Origin: Lysinibacillus pakistanensis
Lineage (GTDB): Bacteria > Bacillota > Bacilli > Bacillales_A > Planococcaceae
Assembly (NCBI RefSeq): GCF_030123245.1
Contig: NZ_CP126101.1
Location: 866,501-930,500 of the forward strand
Length of the DNA: 64,000 bases
Reading direction: 5' to 3'
Of the stretch, positions 5,709-47,663 are shown piece after piece. Under the pieces are notes generated by a model, which was not told where the DNA came from, searched no databases, and saw nothing but the letters and a program-made list of their open reading frames with translations. Made by a program: the position numbers and the translations under genes. Within the stretch, counting starts at the first letter, position 1. Every line of letters starts with the position of its first letter.

Positions 5709-6611
5709 ATGAAAATTTTATCGTTTAAATTAGGTGGACATGTTAGTTTTGGACCGAAAGTAAAAAAAGAAGAAGCGGTATGGGATGTACTCGCTATTCA
5801 AAATGAACTTCAAGTTCTCCCTTCTTTTTCAAGTTCAATCGTGGATGGTATTGCGTTAGGCTTTGATTTTGTTGAACAGATTCGTAAATTAGTAGAAGCG
5901 GCTGAAAAATCAGACCGTGCAGATAGCTTTAAACGTGAATTCACAGTGATAGAATGGTTATCACCAATTCCGCGTACGCCGAAAAATATTATGTGTGTTG
6001 GTAAAAACTATGATGAACATGCAAAAGAAATGGGGGCAGAGGCAGCTCCGACAGATTTAATGGTATTTACAAAATCTCCAACAGCAATTGCAGCTGATGG
6101 TCAAACAATTTCGATACATGCAGGCCTTTCTTCAAAACTAGATTATGAAGGTGAGCTTGCTGTCGTTATTGGTAAACGTGGTAAAAATATACCGAAAAAC
6201 TTAGCATATGATTATGTATTTGGCTACACAATTGCTAACGATATTACAGCTCGTGATTTACAAGAAAAACATAAGCAATTTTTCTTAGGAAAAAGCTTAG
6301 ATGGAACTTGCCCACTTGGACCATACCTTGTGACGAAAGATGAAATTCCAAATCCACAAGATTTAACAATTGTCACAAAAGTAAACGATGAAGTGCGTCA
6401 AAATGGCTCTACTAAGGATATGATGTTCACTGTAGAATCGCTCGTATCTATTTTATCTCAACATGTAATTTTAGAGCCAGGTGATGTAATTTTAACAGGT
6501 ACGCCAGCTGGTGTTGGCAAAGGCATGAATCCGCCTCAATTTTTACAAGCAGGAGATACTGTAAAAGTATCGATTCAGGGTATTGGTACATTAGTAAATC
6601 ATTTTGAATAA
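5709..6611 (+). CDS. yisK: Fumarylacetoacetate hydrolase family protein, YisK type
   Basis: 300 residues, the same length as B. subtilis YisK. A variable N-terminal third precedes the FAH catalytic fold: CVGKNYDEHAKEMG, MVFTKSPTAI, LDYEGELAVVIGK (metal-binding E..E), NDITARDLQ and GDVILTGTPAGVGKG. Family members are metal-dependent hydrolases or decarboxylases of 2-oxo acids; YisK homologues have been linked to oxaloacetate decarboxylation. GAAGGAGCTC precedes the ATG. The gene is followed by a strong terminator, so it appears to be transcribed alone. Its pairing with yisL matches B. subtilis. Confidence 0.92.
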   Translation: MKILSFKLGGHVSFGPKVKKEEAVWDVLAIQNELQVLPSFSSSIVDGIALGFDFVEQIRKLVEAAEKSDRADSFKREFTVIEWLSPIPRTPKNIMCVGKNYDEHAKEMGAEAAPTDLMVFTKSPTAIAADGQTISIHAGLSSKLDYEGELAVVIGKRGKNIPKNLAYDYVFGYTIANDITARDLQEKHKQFFLGKSLDGTCPLGPYLVTKDEIPNPQDLTIVTKVNDEVRQNGSTKDMMFTVESLVSILSQHVILEPGDVILTGTPAGVGKGMNPPQFLQAGDTVKVSIQGIGTLVNHFE

Positions 6612-6618
6612 TTTTTTC

Positions 6619-6652
6619 GATCCGCGTGAGTTTTTGCTCCGCGGATTTTTAA
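6619..6652 (+). terminator. Rho-independent terminator after yisK
   Basis: GATCCGCG and CGCGGAT arms around a T-rich loop are followed by TTTTTAA. Confidence 0.85.
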
Positions 6653-6745
6653 GTATATTATGTGAACACTATTGTAATGTTTGAAACCCTTTCCATCCCA
6701 TGATAGGATAGAATTTGATAGAAAAAAAATATGAGGTGAAAGAAA

Positions 6746-7111
6746 ATGAGTTTTTTAATAAGAACAGATTTGCATATTACAACTTGGGTGGTTGCTATTG
6801 TCATTTTTTTAATTGCTTCATTTATGGGCAATAAGTCAAAGGGCTTACATATGACATTACGTTTATTCTACATTTTAATTATCATTACTGGTCTCATACT
6901 ATTTAATGAGGGAAGAAGTTATGGCATGGGTATGCTTTACGGCTTTAAATTCCTAGGCGGTATTTTAGTTATCGGTATGATGGAAATGGTATTAGTTCGC
7001 CAAAAGAAAAACAAATCAACAGTTATGTTCTGGATCTTATTTGCATTATTCCTATTCATCACATTGTTCCTAGGCTTCAAGCTGCCAATGGGTCAAGATT
7101 TCTTAGCATAA
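6746..7111 (+). CDS. yisL: UPF0344 membrane protein YisL
   Basis: 121 residues with four predicted membrane helices. The signature LHITTWVVA near the N terminus, LRLFYILIIITGL, and the GMMEMVLVRQKK segment followed by a last helix match the YisL/UPF0344 family. The function of the family is unknown. ATGAGGTGAAAGAAA gives a clear ribosome-binding site before ATG 6746. The gene stands between two terminators, next to yisK as in B. subtilis. Confidence 0.9.
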   Translation: MSFLIRTDLHITTWVVAIVIFLIASFMGNKSKGLHMTLRLFYILIIITGLILFNEGRSYGMGMLYGFKFLGGILVIGMMEMVLVRQKKNKSTVMFWILFALFLFITLFLGFKLPMGQDFLA

Positions 7112-7121
7112 TCTTTGTAAG

Positions 7122-7154
7122 AGTCGTGAAGTTTTCGCTTCCCGACTTTTATTT
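7122..7154 (+). terminator. Rho-independent terminator after yisL
   Basis: AGTCG-GAAG pairs with CTTC-CGACT around TTTTCG, followed by TTTATTTTTT. Confidence 0.8.
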
Positions 7155-7179
7155 TTTGTAAAAGTCATAGAAATTGTAG

Positions 7180-7310
7180 CTGAAAAAACGCTCGAGTAGA
7201 CTGTAAAACTGCTTAGGTATACCCAAGAAGCGCTCGGATAGAGTAAAGAACAGCGCTCTGATAAGCCAAAAATTTGCTCCGCTAGGAAGAAAACTGCTCA
7301 GCTCCTCAAT
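7180..7310. repeat. Degenerate ~21-bp intergenic tandem repeat (six copies)
   Basis: The 5' half of the yisL-amylase gap is built of units with a GCTC/GCTT core at 7190, 7211, 7232, 7255, 7276 and 7296, a spacing of 21, 21, 23, 21 and 20 bp. The units share A-rich starts and a GGATA/AGTAGA-like tail but are only about 50-60% alike. No reading frame with a start and ribosome-binding site covers the array. Confidence 0.55.
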
Positions 7311-7444
7311 AAAGGACCTCATAAGGGAAAGTTGACACCTTTTTGTCGTAATTCATTTTGCATTTTCAGAAAATATTTTGAAATGATAGCTACGTGACTG
7401 TTTTATTTGGTAAAATGACGATGGATTGGTTTGAAAGAGAGGGA

Positions 7445-8914
7445 ATGAAAGTGAAATTCAAGAAGTGGATAAGTGCAACAGCTGCAACGCTTTTACTAGC
7501 AACTTCATTTATAAGTGCGATACCAGTGGCACATGCTGATGAAGTGTCAACAAGAACCATTGCAGAAGAAAGCATCTATGATTTACTCGTTGACCGTTTC
7601 TTTAATGGTTCGGGCACTAACGATTTTGATACAAATACGCAAGACCCTTCGAAGTTTGCAGGGGGCGATTTTACAGGTCTACAAGATAAGCTGAATTTCA
7701 TAGGCGAAATGGGCTATACAATTGTTTCTATTGGTCCTATTTTTTCTACAGAGAAATATGATGGTTCAATGCCAACAAGCTATTCAACAATCGAACGACA
7801 TTTTGGAACTTCGGAAGAATTTCAAAGTGTTGTAGAAGCCTATAAAGCCAAAAATATGGCCATCATGGTTGATTTTCCACTCAATAATGTAAGTCCTAAT
7901 CATGAGTGGGCAAAAGATTCTACGAAACAAAATTGGATTGCTTCCACAAATAATGGGCAAGTACAGTGGGACTTAACGAACAAAGAGGTGCAAGAAGCGC
8001 TTATTAAATCAGCAACAGACTTTGTTTCTACATATGATATTGGTGGAATTCGTTTAACAAATATTGCGGGTGCTGATACAGCATTCGTTGATAAAGTTAT
8101 AGCAGCATTAAAAGATGTAAAAAAGTCTCTCTATATCATTTCAAATGAAGCAAGTGATGCCAATTTTGATGCAAGTTTTTCACCTGAAACAGCCGATATT
8201 TATCGTAATATTTTCAAAAATGTTGATATGGATTCGTCCAAGCTATTGGAGCCTTTTACAGGTGATAAACCAACACAAATAATGGTGGATTCTTTAGAAA
8301 CACATCGTTTTACATTTGATTCTGCAAATGAAAATATGTTCCCGCCAACTCGATTAAAAATGGCAATGGGTACTTTATTTATGCTACCAGGAACTCCCAT
8401 TGTGCAATACGGTACAGAAATTGCAATGAATGGTGAAGCGAAGCCAGATACGCATCAAATCTTCAACTTTAAAACAGATGAAGAACTTATCAAATATATT
8501 AAAAATGTCCAATCATTGCGCAATAAATCTGCCACATTACGTAAAGGTGATTTTGAAGTCATCACAAATGAAAATGGTTTACTTGTGTTTACACGTACAT
8601 CTGATGAAGAGAAGTGGGTCATCATGGTCAACAATACGGGGAAAACACAGCGTGTGGATTTAACACCAACCCAGCTAGGCGAAGGTAAAATGCTAAATGG
8701 TATTTTACATGAGGAAAAAGTCCGCATTAATGAAAAGGATGTTTATCCAGTTATTTTAGATCGTGAAATGGTTGAGATTTATCAGGTTAAAAATGATGAA
8801 GGATTCAATATACCCTATATGATAGCACTTGGATTAGTATGGGTAATATTTATAGGGTTTGTCTTTGTAATCATTAAACGAGGTAAAGTCCGTCGTCAGG
8901 AGCAGGATGCATAA
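7445..8914 (+). CDS. Secreted, membrane-anchored GH13 (alpha-amylase-like) protein with degenerate active site
   Basis: About 490 residues. A Sec signal peptide (KFKKWISATAATLLL, cleavage after AHA) precedes a GH13 (beta/alpha)8 barrel, a small beta domain, and a C-terminal membrane helix with a basic tail (IALGLVWVIFIGFVFVIIKR). The fold is recognisable (SIYDLLVDRFFNG; GTPIVQYGTEIAMNG), but all four catalytic regions depart from consensus. Region I reads DFPLNNVSPNH where D...NH is usual. Region II reads GGIRLTN, with Thr in place of the nucleophile Asp of RLD. Region III keeps a Glu (IISNEA). Region IV reads DSLETHRF in place of DNHDTxRF. A binding or scaffolding role seems likelier than hydrolysis. 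The start is ATG 7445 or GTG 7451; GTG 7451 has the better distance to GAGAGGG. Confidence 0.85.
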   Translation: MKVKFKKWISATAATLLLATSFISAIPVAHADEVSTRTIAEESIYDLLVDRFFNGSGTNDFDTNTQDPSKFAGGDFTGLQDKLNFIGEMGYTIVSIGPIFSTEKYDGSMPTSYSTIERHFGTSEEFQSVVEAYKAKNMAIMVDFPLNNVSPNHEWAKDSTKQNWIASTNNGQVQWDLTNKEVQEALIKSATDFVSTYDIGGIRLTNIAGADTAFVDKVIAALKDVKKSLYIISNEASDANFDASFSPETADIYRNIFKNVDMDSSKLLEPFTGDKPTQIMVDSLETHRFTFDSANENMFPPTRLKMAMGTLFMLPGTPIVQYGTEIAMNGEAKPDTHQIFNFKTDEELIKYIKNVQSLRNKSATLRKGDFEVITNENGLLVFTRTSDEEKWVIMVNNTGKTQRVDLTPTQLGEGKMLNGILHEEKVRINEKDVYPVILDREMVEIYQVKNDEGFNIPYMIALGLVWVIFIGFVFVIIKRGKVRRQEQDA

Positions 8915-40943: not shown

Positions 40944-42743
40944 CTACTTTGCATCTTTATATGCTTTTAAAAATTCTTTTACTTTTTCGCTGTCAGCCTT
41001 AAGCTCTAATCCAGTGTTAACTAATGTTGAAACAGTGGATACAGCGGGCTTTTTATTGCCTTGATAATAGCTTATAAATTCATCCTGGTTGATCGAGTAA
41101 AGTATCGCTTTACGTAAGTCCACTGAATCCGACAAGGCACGTCCTGATGTATTCATTTGTAAATATGCTACAGCGTTACTATCAGCGGTATTTAAAGTTA
41201 ATTTATTATCAGACTTTACTATATCCAGTTTTGTTTCTGGTACTGTCTGGAGGATATGGATTTCCCCATTACGTAATGCAGATAGGGCACTATCATTATC
41301 CGCGATGAAACGAACATTGATTTTCTCAATTTTTGGTTCATATTCACTACCAACACGGTATGCAGGATTTTTCACAAATTGTGCTTCATAATCATTTTTC
41401 TTCACAAGAATATAAGGTCCGCTTGCATATAAATGATTGTTATATGTTGCTGTACCCTCTGTTACTGTTGCTTGATCACCATATGCGATATCCTTGTCTG
41501 GATCATAGCTAGCTACATCATAAGTATTGATGCTTGTTACTTGTTTCTCAGATACAATACCGCCAGATTGGTGTGCTAAATAATTTAGCACCTGTGGGAA
41601 TGGTGTCGGTGTTGTAACTTTTACAACCTGATAACTACCTGCTGCATTTTTAACAGCACCTTTATCTTTTGCTAATTTTGTTACAGAAGCAGGTAGGTTT
41701 TGAGAAAGTACATCTAAAATAGATTGATCTGATCCTGCCACTTTTTTATTTTGTAATTCAGCTAAGTCTGAAACGATTTCTACAGATTCAATATTTTCAT
41801 GGATACTATAAGTACGGTGATCTGGTACTGATGTTGAATCTTTTGCACGATTTAATGAGAATACAACATCTTCCCCAGACACCAATTCACCTGTATCAAC
41901 GGCAGCACCATCCTTAACAGCTGCAAAGTGAATATCATCACGTAAAATGAAGTAATATTCTTGGTTACCTTCAGCAATTGCATGGTTATAAGATAGTGAA
42001 CCATCTGACACGACTTCATCTGTATCCGTTAAGTTAACAAGTCGAGCATACATATTAGTATTCAATGTATTAATGGAGCCATCATTACCTTTAATTGGAT
42101 CAAGTGATGTTAAAGAATCTAGTGTTTGGTGTAAAATCAACGGTTCTTTGGCATTTTTAGATGCATCATTAAATGCAATTCTTTCCCAAACCTGTGCACG
42201 TGATTTCGGCAAAAGAACAGTTTTTGGATTTACTAATTCTGAATAAATTCCTTGATACTTATTGGAAATATATAAAGGCGCAATATATGCCTGATCGAAA
42301 ACTAATAGCTGTTCTAATTCTTTATATTTTGCTGCAGCTTCATCACCTGTTAATGTACTTGCTTCATCAATTAAAGCATCTAATTTCGAGTCAGCAACAA
42401 CACTGTAATCGCCACCCGTTTTAAATAAACCACGTACAGCATAATCAGGATTTCCTGTAACTGTTGTCCAGCTAGAAAGTGCTAAATCGTAATTGCCCGC
42501 CTCTTTTTGGGCAGAAAATGAACCATAATCAGGCTGAATGTTGAGTTTTACATCAAAGCCATTTTTCACTAATTGATCTCGCACAATATTCATATCCTCT
42601 TCAGAAGCGGACATGCCTAAAAGTTCAATTGAAGTACTGCCTTTCCCTTTTGAATCTTTATTGCCTTCTACGTCCTTTTTTGTTTGAACACAGCCGGATA
42701 GTGCTAATACTGCTATGAATAACAATATAAGTAATCTCTTCAT
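40944..42743 (-). CDS. Oligopeptide-type ABC importer binding lipoprotein with circularly permuted SBP_bac_5 domain
   Basis: 599 residues, lipoprotein signal with LSGC (Cys18). Residues 36-191 correspond to the usual C-terminal part of family 5 binding proteins: VRDQLVKNGFDVKL, YDLALSSWTTVTGNPDYAVRGLF, DALIDEAST, QLLVFDQAYIAPLYISNKYQGI. Residues from about 200 onward are the usual N-terminal and middle parts: SLTSLDPIKGNDGSINTLNTNMYARLV, SGEDVVFSLNRAKD, YASGPYILVKKN and LRKAILYSINQDEFISYYQG. The chain then ends at SEKVKEFLKAYKDAK, the point where a normal protein would go on into the segment now at the N terminus. The domain is therefore a circular permutation, with new ends in a surface loop of lobe I/II. 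Last gene of the operon. Confidence 0.88.
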   Translation of the reverse strand: MKRLLILLFIAVLALSGCVQTKKDVEGNKDSKGKGSTSIELLGMSASEEDMNIVRDQLVKNGFDVKLNIQPDYGSFSAQKEAGNYDLALSSWTTVTGNPDYAVRGLFKTGGDYSVVADSKLDALIDEASTLTGDEAAAKYKELEQLLVFDQAYIAPLYISNKYQGIYSELVNPKTVLLPKSRAQVWERIAFNDASKNAKEPLILHQTLDSLTSLDPIKGNDGSINTLNTNMYARLVNLTDTDEVVSDGSLSYNHAIAEGNQEYYFILRDDIHFAAVKDGAAVDTGELVSGEDVVFSLNRAKDSTSVPDHRTYSIHENIESVEIVSDLAELQNKKVAGSDQSILDVLSQNLPASVTKLAKDKGAVKNAAGSYQVVKVTTPTPFPQVLNYLAHQSGGIVSEKQVTSINTYDVASYDPDKDIAYGDQATVTEGTATYNNHLYASGPYILVKKNDYEAQFVKNPAYRVGSEYEPKIEKINVRFIADNDSALSALRNGEIHILQTVPETKLDIVKSDNKLTLNTADSNAVAYLQMNTSGRALSDSVDLRKAILYSINQDEFISYYQGNKKPAVSTVSTLVNTGLELKADSEKVKEFLKAYKDAK

Positions 42744-42758
42744 GTAAGAACCTCCATC

Positions 42759-44255
42759 TTAATTTGTTTTTGGATCTAAAGCATCCCGTAATCCATCCCC
42801 TAAGAAATTAAAGGAGAGAACGAGCAGCATAATACAAAGACCTGGGAAAATCGCAACATAGGAATGTGTTTCCAGGTACGTACTACCAACCTTTAAAATA
42901 TTGCCCCATTCAGGAATATGTGGTTCAATGCCAAGCCCTAAAAAGCTTAGACTACTTGTTGAAATAACAGCTCCACCAATTGTTAGTGTTGCTTTAACAA
43001 TCATTGGTGCTAATGAATTAGGGACGATATGCTTAAAGATGATTGCAGCATCAGAAGCACCTAATGCTCTAGCTGATTCTACAAATTCAAAATTAGTGAG
43101 TTGCATAACATTCGCCCGCATCGTACGAGCGTATGTAGGAATAGCTCCAACACTAAGAGCAATGATTAAATTAACCGTATTGGCTCCAAACGCAGCAATT
43201 ATTGCAATAGCTAGTAAAATACCAGGAATCGCATATAAAATATCAAGGCTACGCATGATGATGTTGTCTGTGGCTTTGCCATAAAAGCCTGAAAACGCTC
43301 CAAGCACTCCTCCAATAAGTGCTGGAATAATGGTTGAGAAAAAGCCAACAATCAACGATATTTGTGCACCGAAAATAATACGAGAAAATAAATCTCTACC
43401 ATAATTATCTGTGCCTAGTGGGTATTCCAGTGACGGTGTTTGTAACAAAGCTCCGTAGTTATTTTCGGTAGCCAAATCATAGTCGAATGTCCACGAGCTT
43501 GTGACAGATAATGAAAACATTAAAACTATGAAAAATAACCCGAAAACAGCCATTGTATTACGCAAAATCTTTTCCCAAATGTTTTGCCATTTTTCTATCG
43601 ATGATGGATTTGTCTTTCGTGCCTTTTGAATAAGGCAATAACCTAGTAATGTGGCAAAAAGATTGCCAGTAAAAGTCGCACATAATAGCAATATACCAGG
43701 CAACAGCATCCATTTTGGGGCAGATTTTTGTGTAACAAATTTGGTACATAAAATTAGCATTACAATATAAAAGAGTGCAAGGCATAGGAAAAGCCCCATT
43801 GCTAGTAAAAAGGTATCTGTCACATACGGCTTAAACAGATTTAGTGCTGAAATACCTATGATGAATAGTTGTGTAATAAATGCATACGCAGCAAAGGTAT
43901 ATTCAGCTGTCTTTTTCTTAGACACAAGCATAAAAGCAAATGACGCTGAGAAAATATTGCCCGTAGCTACTGTTAAAAATAATGGATATCCAAGAAGACG
44001 AGTGCTTTTTGGGATATCTCCTAGCTTTGCTAAATTCTGTTTGATTCGAACAGTAAGAAAACCGACATAAGCGGTGGTAATCGCATAAATTATAAAAATG
44101 GCACACACAATTGGGCGCAAGCTTTGGCTAGAGAAATCATAGCTATAAGCTAGAAACAATAAAGAGAACAGGAAGGAAAAGACAAATGTAAAATGAGCAT
44201 TGACATATTCCTGTGTAATCTTCAAAAGTAGTTTGACATGTAAAATGTTTTTCAA
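42759..44255 (-). CDS. ABC importer permease, DppC/OppC type, with ~225-residue membrane N-terminal extension
   Basis: 498 residues against about 300 for DppC. The N-terminal 225 residues hold about six predicted helices (FVFSFLFSLLFLAYSY, LFLTVATGNIFSASFAFML, WMLLPGILLLCATFTGNLFATLLG) and are not part of the BPD_transp_1 fold. The permease core follows: YPLGTDNYGRDLFSRIIFGAQISL, an EAA loop ESARALGASDAAIIFKHIVPNSLAP, and SSLSFLGLGIEPHIPEWG. Lies between the other permease gene (13-bp gap) and the binding-protein gene (15-bp gap). Confidence 0.9.
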   Translation of the reverse strand: MKNILHVKLLLKITQEYVNAHFTFVFSFLFSLLFLAYSYDFSSQSLRPIVCAIFIIYAITTAYVGFLTVRIKQNLAKLGDIPKSTRLLGYPLFLTVATGNIFSASFAFMLVSKKKTAEYTFAAYAFITQLFIIGISALNLFKPYVTDTFLLAMGLFLCLALFYIVMLILCTKFVTQKSAPKWMLLPGILLLCATFTGNLFATLLGYCLIQKARKTNPSSIEKWQNIWEKILRNTMAVFGLFFIVLMFSLSVTSSWTFDYDLATENNYGALLQTPSLEYPLGTDNYGRDLFSRIIFGAQISLIVGFFSTIIPALIGGVLGAFSGFYGKATDNIIMRSLDILYAIPGILLAIAIIAAFGANTVNLIIALSVGAIPTYARTMRANVMQLTNFEFVESARALGASDAAIIFKHIVPNSLAPMIVKATLTIGGAVISTSSLSFLGLGIEPHIPEWGNILKVGSTYLETHSYVAIFPGLCIMLLVLSFNFLGDGLRDALDPKTN

Positions 44256-44268
44256 AGATGCTCCCCCT

Positions 44269-45699
44269 TTAAGACTTCTTCATTTTTGAGCGGATGCGTG
44301 GATCGAAAAATGCATACAAAATATCGATAAAAAGGTTAACAATCGAAATTGTAATAGCAATGTATACGACCCCACCTAGAATCGCTGGGATATCGGGGAT
44401 AAACTGTTTGTCAACGATATAGCTACCAATACCACTAATATTAAAAACCTTTTCTGTAACAGATGCCCCTCCCAACATGCCGCCAAAGAGAAGCCCGATC
44501 ACTGTAATAATAGGAATCATGGCATTACGAATCGCATGCTTTGAAATGACTTTAAATTCATTTAAACCTTTAGCCCTTGCTGTAATAATGTAATCCTCAT
44601 GTATAACCTCAAGCATGCTCGATCTGGTCATACGGGCAATTGAAGCAGTAATAGATGTACCCAAAACAATTACTGGCATAATGAGAGATAACCAATTTTG
44701 GGGATTATATGTAGCTGGTAACCACTGAAGCTTTAACGCGAACGTTAAAATAAAGATTAATCCCTGCCAGAAGCTCGGTATGGATAGTCCGATTAAAGCG
44801 ATGAACATAAATGTATAATCCAAATAGGAATTTGGACGTACCGCTGAAATAATGCCAACTGGAATAGCTATGGCAATAGCCATTAATAATGATAGGACGG
44901 CAATTTCAAGTGTGATAGGAAATTTATTTGCAATACTATGAGTAATGTCTTCTTTCCCTGCAAAGGATGTACCTAAATCGAAGGTGAATAGGCCAGATAA
45001 GGCATTCCACAACTGAGAGAAATAGGGTTGATCTAAGCTGTGAATGCGATTGAAATTGGCAATTTGCTCAGCCGTTGCCTCGACCCCTAATAGATTTCTT
45101 GCAGGATCAAAAGGAGACAAATACAAAATTGTAAAAACTAGTGTAGCCACTCCTACAATAACAATGAAGCTTTGTAGTATTCGCTCAATGATGAATTGTA
45201 GAAATGGATTCGCAAATAAAAGCAGTACTACATAAAATAAAGCAGCAGGTAAAAACGTTAAAGTCAGAAATTTTCTGTTTTTTAGTTGCTCACTAAAATA
45301 CTCTAAATAGGAGAGTTCCTTTATGCCTTCCTTTAATAAATCCTGCTCAATAAATTGCTGAATTTTTGCTTGAGCCAATCTAGAAGCTGTTTCCTGTATT
45401 TTCTTTTCAGATACAGTTTCGTGAAAAAAGGTAGCCTTTGCTAATTCTTGTTCTGCAAATGCTGATTGCCATTTTGCCAACAAACCTTTTTCCTCGTAGT
45501 ACAGCCACCGTTGTTCAAAAGCATGTTTGTAATGTTGTGATTGTTTTCCTTTTCGATAGAAATAGTATGTAATTGGATGCACCAAAATACTTAAAAGAAA
45601 GAGCAATACATTGTAGAGTTTTTGAGTTTTGAGCTTTTGAAAAACCGTAAAAAAGAATACATGTTCCGTAGTTGCTGAATGATTATTTGATATATCCAT
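44269..45699 (-). CDS. ABC importer permease, DppB/OppB type, with ~165-residue N-terminal extension
   Basis: 476 residues against about 310 for DppB. The extension has one hydrophobic segment (LYNVLLFLLSILVHPITYYFY), a charged helical stretch (residues about 55-140, EEKGLLAKWQSAFAEQELAKATF) and a second hydrophobic segment. The DppB core then begins with ERILQSFIVIVGVATLVFTILYLSP and DPARNLLG, and carries the EAA loop TARAKGLNEFKVISKHAIRNAMIP. First gene of the minus-strand operon, divergent from the fused ATPase gene. AAACGTTTGGAGGAAATGC gives a clear ribosome-binding site. Confidence 0.9.
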   Translation of the reverse strand: MDISNNHSATTEHVFFFTVFQKLKTQKLYNVLLFLLSILVHPITYYFYRKGKQSQHYKHAFEQRWLYYEEKGLLAKWQSAFAEQELAKATFFHETVSEKKIQETASRLAQAKIQQFIEQDLLKEGIKELSYLEYFSEQLKNRKFLTLTFLPAALFYVVLLLFANPFLQFIIERILQSFIVIVGVATLVFTILYLSPFDPARNLLGVEATAEQIANFNRIHSLDQPYFSQLWNALSGLFTFDLGTSFAGKEDITHSIANKFPITLEIAVLSLLMAIAIAIPVGIISAVRPNSYLDYTFMFIALIGLSIPSFWQGLIFILTFALKLQWLPATYNPQNWLSLIMPVIVLGTSITASIARMTRSSMLEVIHEDYIITARAKGLNEFKVISKHAIRNAMIPIITVIGLLFGGMLGGASVTEKVFNISGIGSYIVDKQFIPDIPAILGGVVYIAITISIVNLFIDILYAFFDPRIRSKMKKS

Positions 45700-45923
45700 G
45701 CATTTCCTCCAAACGTAAGTTAAGTAAGGTTAAAGCAATTAAGTCTTCATTACTGATCAGTTTATGCAATATCTTGCTGACTCGTTATTAGAATTGAATT
45801 GATCTGCTGACTAATTACGGGATGACATGTTTTGTACAATACTGTATAATTCCTATCAGTATTGTAAAGTATGGATTATACTTGTACTTAAGTCAATCAC
45901 AAAATTTAAAAAGGGTGGATGGA
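45700..45923. other. Divergent regulatory region of the importer
   Basis: 224 bp between the two divergent transcripts. On the plus strand TGTATAATTCC (near 45842) and GGATTATACTTG (near 45871) are -10-like. No T-box, S-box or other riboswitch was recognised. Confidence 0.35.
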
Positions 45924-47663
45924 ATGAGTGAAAAGCTTCTAGAAATCAACAATCTTCGTGTGTCCTTTCTGACAGGGGAGACAGAATTTGAAGCAGTTAA
46001 GGATGTTAGCTTTCATCTAAATAAAGGTGAAACGCTCGGAATAGTAGGAGAGTCAGGTAGTGGAAAAAGTGTTACGGCTCGTTCAATTATGCGTTTATTA
46101 CCAACCCCCCCTTCATTTTTGAAGTCAGGCAGTATTTTATTTAAAGGACAAGAAATAACCACTTTAAGTGAAAAGCAAATGGAAGCAATCCGCGGACAAG
46201 ATATTAGTATGATATTTCAAGATCCTATGTCATCCACAAATCCAACTATTCGAATTGGGGAACAAGTAGCTGAAAGTTTAATCAAGCATCAGTCAATGTC
46301 CAAAGCTGAGGCCTATAGACAAACAATTGAGCTATTAAAGCTTGTAGGTATAAGGGAGCCTGAAGAACGCTATAAGCAATATCCACATGAATTTTCGGGA
46401 GGGATGAGGCAACGTGTCATGATTGCTATGGCATTAGCCTGTAATCCGTCTTTACTCATAGCAGATGAACCGACAACTGCACTTGATGTAACGATTCAAG
46501 CGCAAATTTTAAAATTAATGCGCAATATGCAAAAGAAAATGGGTACCTCGATTATTTTGATAACACATGATTTAGGCGTTGTGGCTGGTATGTGTGATCG
46601 ACTGATTGTCATGAAAGAGGGGGAGATTGTTGAGCAGGGAACAACAGAGGAAATTTTTTCTAATGCTCAACATCCATATACAAAAAAGCTATTGAATGCT
46701 CTACCAAAACTCCATGAGAAAAAGCAGCCAAAACCGCATGTAAATTGGCAAACTAGTAGCAATCAACATAAACCATTAATTGAAGTTACACATCTTTCAA
46801 AGGAATTTGAATTAGGTCGTGGTCAAACAGTAAAGGCTGTTAATGATTTATCATTTCATATATACCCTGGAGAAACATTGGGATTAGTGGGCGAGTCAGG
46901 CTCAGGCAAATCTACGACAGGACGAACGATTTTACAGCTCCATCAGCCTACATATGGAGAAGTCTTATATCAAGGAATACCCATTACAAGGTTAACGAAG
47001 AAACAGCTAAAGGCAATGCGTCGTCATATGCAAATTATATTCCAAGATCCATATTCCTCGTTAAACCCCCGAAAAAAAGTCGTTGATATTATTGGGGAGG
47101 CATTAGATATTCATAAGCTGGTCAAAACAAATGCAGAACGACAACATCGTGTCGAGGAATTACTTGAGCTTGTAGGCTTAAACAAAGAACATGCAATGCG
47201 TTATCCACATGAATTTTCAGGTGGACAACGACAACGTATTGGCATTGCAAGAGCTCTAGCAGTGGAGCCTAACTTTATCGTTTGTGATGAACCACTATCA
47301 GCTCTGGATGTTTCTATACAAAAGCAAATTGTTGATTTGTTAAAGGATTTACAGCAGCGACTGGGCTTAACATACTTATTTATTGCCCATGATTTGTCTA
47401 TGGTGAAGCATATTAGTGATCGTGTAGCGGTCATGTATGGTGGTAAAATTGTCGAGCTTGCAGAAAGTGAAGAGCTCTATGCAAATCCTCGACATCCTTA
47501 TACACAAGCTTTATTGCGCTCCATCCCAATTCCTGACCCAGCAATCGAAAAGCAAAAATATGTGGACACTGAAAATGAAGAAACACAACCAAGCTATGAG
47601 ATTGAAAATAGTCAGCTTGTTGAGGTATCTCCAAATCATTGGGTTGCCGTTGCAGCTACATAG
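45924..47663 (+). CDS. Fused double ATP-binding protein (DppD-DppF/OppD-OppF fusion) of the importer
   Basis: 579 residues from ATG 45924 (AAAGGGTGGATGGA upstream). Two complete ABC domains: the first has [12 protein letters not shown] (Walker A), [15 protein letters not shown] (signature) and [12 protein letters not shown] (Walker B); the second has [27 protein letters not shown] and [12 protein letters not shown]. Each ends with the oligopeptide/dipeptide C-terminal extension ([26 protein letters not shown]). Similar fusions are known (GsiA, YejF). Together with the divergent genes it completes an importer: one ATPase chain, two permeases, one lipoprotein. Confidence 0.94.

Follow-up and report, generated by a model that had tools for sequence, protein, structure and literature searches.

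Gene content of the locus

The window analysed here, a 64,000-nucleotide stretch of the Lysinibacillus pakistanensis genome (NZ_CP126101.1, positions 866,501 to 930,500), contains an operon for a transporter whose binding protein has its segments in an unusual order (Table 1). Two BPD_transp_1 permeases and an oligopeptide-type ATPase lie beside the gene for the binding protein, which identifies an importer of the Opp/Dpp type. The true start of the fused ATPase may be located inside the listed open reading frame. No Pfam match above the curated cut-off was found for the N-terminal extensions of the two permeases (window positions 43590-44255 and 45202-45699), and promoter and terminator scans did no better than scans of shuffled sequences.

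Table 1 Features of the transporter locus, in coordinates of the window
Feature	Position	Strand	Basis
Circularly permuted SBP_bac_5 lipoprotein, 599 aa	40944..42743	minus (reads 42743 to 40944)	Pfam, rotation scan
Signal peptide and lipobox, ending at Cys18 (LSGC)	42690..42743	minus	pattern, alignment
Residues 36-199, the usual C-terminal third, now first	42147..42638	minus	Pfam profile 279-366, PDB matches, DppA from about 370 onward
Residues 200-599, the usual N-terminal and middle parts	40947..42146	minus	Pfam profile 12-274, rotation scan
Permease C (PermC), 498 aa; OppC_N from residue 223, hence an N-terminal extension of about 220 aa	42759..44255	minus	Pfam
Permease B (PermB), 476 aa; BPD_transp_1_N from residue 167, hence an N-terminal extension of about 165 aa	44269..45699	minus	Pfam
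Fused two-domain ATPase, OppD-OppF type	45822..47663	plus, divergent	two ABC_tran and two oligo_HPY stretches

Order of segments in the binding protein

The window protein is a member of Pfam family SBP_bac_5 (PF00496), with 137.7 bits against a gathering score of 32.4, but it does not have the usual N-to-C order of segments. On the 368 positions of the profile, residues 256-593 fall on 12-274, while the N-terminal 191 amino acids searched alone place residues 29-112 on 279-366 (E 3.1e-7; 30.3 bits, slightly below the gathering score of 32.4). An earlier note on this DNA had proposed searching residues 36-191 and 200-599 separately. Matches to PDB sequences have the same swap, with residues 52-157 aligned to 380-489 of 5u4o and residues 436-569 to 196-326 of the same entry. 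The earlier note had read residues 36-191 as what is normally the C-terminal third in family 5 binding proteins, followed by the N-terminal and middle parts, and both assignments are upheld by these searches. A short polar linker separates the lipobox from the swapped parts, and the segment of residues 200-599 stops after the helix that precedes position ~369 of Escherichia coli DppA.

The swap was examined further with a profile of 490 positions built from 32 canonical-order proteins, against which the chain of the window protein was scored after rotation in steps of ten residues. Its native order gives 134.3 bits over profile positions 8-324, the N-part only, whereas rotation to residue 188 gives 193.8 bits in one collinear match over positions 9-472 of 490. 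Only 59 of 100 shuffled controls scored at all (best, 1.3 bits), and three canonical controls, each omitted from the profile in turn, peak unrotated. The native match ends at position 324, and the rotation scan finds no second C-terminal segment in the window protein; each segment is present once, which rules out duplication and agrees with the earlier description of a clean permutation. The window protein is thereby confirmed as a circularly permuted family 5 (cluster C) binding lipoprotein with a single copy of each segment.

The structure model is modest. The best AlphaFold2 model, made from 16 sequences, has a mean pLDDT of 67.9 and a pTM of 0.61, and the other four models have values of 45-50. 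Foldseek returned 74 PDB matches at E <= 0.001, of which the best 50 are peptide, nickel, and opine-type binding proteins, a set that we take to be cluster C. A bilobed fold with a ligand cleft may be indicated by matches of this kind, which have low query TM-scores (0.21-0.36 among the best 50 of the 74). Since Foldseek aligns sequentially and prints no aligned ranges, and since a permuted chain and a poor model would both lower the TM-scores, these scores are no test of the permutation and no independent proof of it.

Distribution and conservation

A scan of GTDB contigs found 24 close loci on separate contigs that encode a relative. Fifteen relatives aligned with it have the identical segment order at 57-90% identity, and Cys18 of the lipobox is invariant in all 16 proteins of this alignment. 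With swapped order on so many separate contigs and in sampled genomes as well, open frames, many invariant columns, and nothing found in its favor, an artefact of assembly or annotation, or a fusion in decay, is refuted as an explanation and has practically no chance of being correct.

To describe the relatives, 110 distinct frames were classed by the order of their halves, giving 49 of type P1 (the group of the window protein), 20 of type P2 (within L039-L044 and L078-L096), and 41 canonical frames; frames matching one half only, among them L029, L031, L033, L101, and L102, were left unclassed. The names P1 and P2 were given once the chain order was known and some tree-like information had been seen. 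Junction profile A2, which must match on both sides of the swap, does so over its full span in 10 of the 398 genomes sampled from the phylum (4 P1 and 6 P2). Of the 299 genomes sampled from the class, 27 have such a match, all of them P1; the other 4 of the 31 matches in the class are one-sided. A broader profile, A3, was run on 299 genomes of Tissierella's phylum, a sample that overlaps the 398 genomes. Among the matches listed it has at least 21 full-span places (2 P1 and 19 P2), and at least 100 of the 299 genomes have some match, many to one half only. The P1 form is also present in Tissierella. Beyond the phylum, the search extended to plasmids, to viral contigs, and to genome contigs scanned once for close relatives. 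The scan of viral contigs found no relative, and plasmid records gave four matches, two of which cover >= 80% of the query.

A simple lipobox pattern is present in 49 of 49 P1 rows and in six of seven canonical sisters, L099 being missed by the pattern. By the same pattern, 10 of 19 assessable P2 proteins have no lipobox, and the positives L089, L093, and L094 are doubtful; L083, with its cut frame, was not judged, so that the count is 10 of 19 and not 11 of 20.

One paralogue in the window genome (L033, G000:C1:348162-348563) encodes 545 aa that match SBP_bac_5 only over residues 2-157 and has a start resembling a DNA-binding regulator, presumably SgrR-like.

Two permuted groups at a common cut site

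The chain of the window protein is cut at about E. coli DppA 369|370 (precursor numbering), between the helix ending in KALLKEAG and the next strand, and the P2 protein L041 is cut at approximately the same site. Breaks in the Pfam matches agree, at 274|279 in P1 and at 278-280 in the P2 proteins L041 and L084. For four P1 proteins the most similar P2 rows have 19-24% identity and the most similar canonical rows 22-27%, and three P2 proteins reach at best 55-58% identity to an ordinary-order sister (L097, L099).

In a 57-row tree (sequences thinned at 80% identity, permuted chains rotated to canonical order, and the short L083 omitted), the 14 P1 rows form one branch (100/100) on a stem of 1.98. 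The 11 P2 rows form another (100/96), nested among canonical proteins on starred branches, and the ordinary-order L097 is their sister (99/97). Forcing P1 and P2 into one clade costs 60.7 log-likelihood units and is rejected (p-AU 0.00053). Under the tree model used, P1 and P2 were permuted independently at approximately the same site. The evidence for two origins is strong but not final, because the P1 stem is long and the tree program flags long branches as well as unusual composition in some rows.

The alternative is one ancient permutation that gave rise to both groups, with the ordinary-order sisters of P2 as reversions. A cut site that is nearly the same in P1 and P2 would fit such a history, as would the finding that a junction profile built from P1 only detects P2 proteins at E 1.9e-8 to 1.5e-6. 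It is contradicted by the likelihood comparison, though with a stem of this length not beyond doubt, and by the nesting of P2 among ordinary-order proteins, and a reversion would need a second exact permutation. We therefore consider a single origin very improbable and retain two independent permutations as the preferred history.

Several frames were considered as intermediates of permutation, and none was found among L101, L102, and L083. As split forms, L101 and L102 were set aside since both reach the edge of the available sequence, and L083 since it contains one in-frame TAG. The last of these (L117:5180-6916, genome G917) is a permuted P2 gene in two open pieces parted by this single TAG, which may reflect a sequencing error, decay, or recoding. 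An 853-aa frame in G786 was rejected as a duplication intermediate, as its ordinary-order domain follows an apparent methyl-accepting-type signalling domain. It belongs to a tandem pair (L158:3550-6108 and 6116-8653, G786:C54) with frames of 853 and 846 aa, each with the apparent methyl-accepting-type signalling domain, recognized by eye, in front of a complete SBP_bac_5-like domain in ordinary order, which scores 376.7 and 348.6 bits, respectively, on the canonical profile. Neither has an obvious signal peptide at its start, and the products may be soluble peptide sensors.

Position of the anchor and ligand residues

The domain map published for EppA assigns residues 27-256 to Domain I, 257-302 to IIa, 303-530 to III, and 531-563 (of 563) to IIb (PMC7312458). 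Transferred by rough position, not by superposition, this map indicates that the cut should fall inside Domain III, the C-lobe. In that case the lipid anchor would have shifted from the N-lobe to the C-lobe, and we consider it probable that the anchor has moved to the other lobe. The earlier suggestion that the tether now sits on another face of the protein is favored to this extent, through the cut at about DppA 369|370 and the EppA map.

E. coli DppA and the window protein belong to the same family by Pfam and PDB matches, and differ in the order of the segments swapped at about 369|370 and in two ligand residues. In DppA, R383 and D436 are described as holding the ends of the dipeptide, D436 binding the amino group (PMC12136057). 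Both positions fall in the moved segment. Neither DppA-type residue is present in P1, where D436 is replaced by Val and R383 is opposite a gap in 14 of 14 rows, suggesting that ligand binding is unlike that of DppA. In P2, D436 is Ala (10 rows) or Ser (one row) in 11 of 11 rows, and R383 is again a gap. This loss is not tied to the permutation, because many ordinary-order rows lack the residues as well (D436 is retained in 17 of 32 and R383 in 12 of 32).

Permeases and the docking question

All eight intact P1 loci examined contain the ATPase, PermB, PermC, and the binding protein; in the P1 loci of Tissierella and Negativibacillus there are two separate ATPases rather than a fused one. In the 299-genome class sample, the PermB extension is detected in 25 of the 27 P1 genomes and in none of the remaining 272 genomes. 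The two P1 genomes in which it is not detected are the staphylococcal ones, and their PermB is still long (446-448 aa). Frames for PermB are 459-502 aa in P1 (8 loci), 343-375 aa in P2 (7 loci), and 340-374 aa in the canonical sister operons (4 loci). One P2 PermB has 57-60% identity to its counterparts in four canonical sister operons and 54-62% to its counterparts in six further P2 operons. Given this similarity in both length and identity, one kind of permease serves binding proteins of either chain order.

The earlier note had further proposed that a moved tether may change docking to the permeases. An explanation along these lines would have the anchor on the C-lobe altering the docking of the binding protein, with the P1 permease extensions as the matching change in a distinct mode of coupling. 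It draws on the detection of the PermB extension in nearly all P1 genomes and in no others of the sample, on the lipobox in all 49 P1 rows, and on a cut that probably lies within Domain III. The P2 group weighs against it. P2 has approximately the same cut site as the group of the window protein and differs from it in origin, in its ordinary permeases, and in the lack of a lipobox in 10 of 19 proteins. Permutation alone therefore need not alter docking, and a moved anchor is not a common cause. Furthermore, the PermB extension evolves fast (16-30% identity to that of the window) and was undetected in the two staphylococcal P1 genomes, and its linkage to P1 could be due to shared ancestry alone, which would give the same pattern. 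The proposal is thus opposed by P2 and favored by an extension confined to the window's own group, and we regard altered docking as rather unlikely. A related and broader view, which we hold to be similarly doubtful, is that the loop at DppA 369|370 is a hot spot for permutation in cluster C, used at least twice, that the P1 extensions form a new docking platform for a C-lobe-anchored protein and thus a previously undescribed coupling of binding protein and importer, and that the S. aureus glutathione importer is an unrecognized case.

Our preferred reading holds that the window gene encodes a permuted cluster C binding lipoprotein of an Opp/Dpp-type importer with its own permeases and fused ATPase, that this lipoprotein is anchored by its C-lobe, that P1 is homologous to GisABCD (see below), and that P2 was permuted independently; we consider this reading likely. 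In the proposed scheme the usual N and C termini would have become linked, and new ends would have arisen in the C-lobe, in the loop that leads from the 'AKxLLxEAG' helix to the strand after it. The protein would still fold correctly, would most likely bind its ligand in the space between the lobes, in the manner of other members of the family, and would pass it to the permeases for transport while anchored through the C-lobe.

Relationship to the glutathione importer GisABCD-Ggt

GisABCD of Staphylococcus aureus has been described as importing oxidized glutathione (GSSG) and supporting growth on GSH and GSSG, and GisABCD-Ggt corresponds to SAUSA300_0200-0204 (PMC10355420). The main text of that paper contains no word beginning with 'permut'. 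Two P1 loci, L108 and L109, have a gamma-glutamyltranspeptidase (GGT) gene directly after the binding protein (E 4.3e-155 and 8.3e-158). In their genus the permuted junction is present in 7 of 41 sampled genomes, and in 7 of these 7 a long GGT starts 1.1-1.2 kb past the matched junction, as the next gene on that strand of that contig. By resemblance to S. aureus the genus is taken to be staphylococcal. To pieces of an S. aureus record (L106), the L108 binding protein has 78% identity across 171 residues and the fused ATPase of L108 has 67% identity across 528 residues. L108 and L109 share with GisABCD-Ggt the gene order, homologous binding-protein, permease, and fused-ATPase genes, and the adjacent long GGT; they are taken as Gis by this layout and by likeness to the S. 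aureus pieces, not by alignment to SAUSA300_0200-0203.

The S. aureus record L106 (NZ_CP077929, 'plasmid unnamed2') carries the transporter genes twice, in opposite orientation and with several of them broken. It includes the permuted gene in this duplicated, partly broken stretch, which is probably an assembly artefact of a chromosomal piece. No ggt is present in the part examined. In a tblastn search of plasmids with the L108 GGT, NZ_CP077929 is absent from the best 8 of 760 records, and it may still be among the others.

The layout of the staphylococcal P1 loci and the pieces of L106 suggest that GisD is very probably permuted, judging from genomes of the same layout rather than from the SAUSA300_0203 sequence itself. 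The relationship to the window protein is more distant, as the staphylococcal protein L067 has 37-38% identity to parts of it. The window genome also differs from GisABCD-Ggt in having no GGT, beside the transporter or elsewhere (0 of 1, in a search that finds GGT in 8 of 14 genomes). The glutathione reading is therefore not simply transferable to L. pakistanensis, and the substrate may differ.

Because P1 is homologous to GisABCD, our best guess is that the importer of the window species takes up a glutathione-like compound or another small peptide with cysteine, a guess that could go either way. An importer of something other than glutathione-like thiol peptides is equally plausible, and here the evidence is divided. 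The missing GGT and the replacement of DppA D436 by Val point to another substrate, as does the scarcity of telling neighbors. Among 15 loci, no flanking gene that could name a substrate recurs beyond pairs or trios of near relatives, ggt being common to the two staphylococcal loci. The homology to the staphylococcal system speaks for a thiol peptide, and so does a serine-dehydratase-alpha-type gene directly downstream of the P1 operon in Tissierella (L022:7925-9214; Pfam SDH_alpha, E 6e-56). We assume that the latter gene is perhaps a cysteine desulfidase, which would fit a sulphur substrate.

Comparison with known permuted binding proteins and significance

The closest parallel in the literature found is Tp0684 (TpMglB-2) of Treponema pallidum, described as a cluster B binding protein with a permuted chain, which binds glucose and undergoes a conformational change (PMC4990184). 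Its authors proposed the name 'Cluster Bc' and considered that tethering might be a reason for the permutation (PMC4990184). Like the window protein, Tp0684 is a membrane-tethered ABC binding protein with a naturally occurring circular permutation, and it differs in its cluster B (sugar) fold and in the position of its cut, a distinction drawn from its published description and not from sequence comparison. The window protein does not have the cluster B fold by its own matches, as its Pfam and PDB sequence hits are to family 5 (cluster C). A full-text literature search with permutation terms, with most subscription journals outside its scope, found no report of a permuted cluster C protein among the matches listed.

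For natural permutation in the binding proteins of ABC importers, the literature found thus shows one case, in cluster B. To this the large and well-studied cluster C adds two permutations at approximately the same site, and the recurrent cut, together with the natural controls, is the surprising part. Swapped order affects both homology searches, since Pfam splits such proteins into two stretches, and structural models. Earlier readings of GisD, which belongs to an S. aureus nutrient importer that has been studied, have probably overlooked that its domains are swapped. As natural controls there are the ordinary-order sisters of P2, at up to 58% identity, with which an old question becomes testable, namely whether the position of the chain ends and of the anchor matters for folding, docking, or transport.
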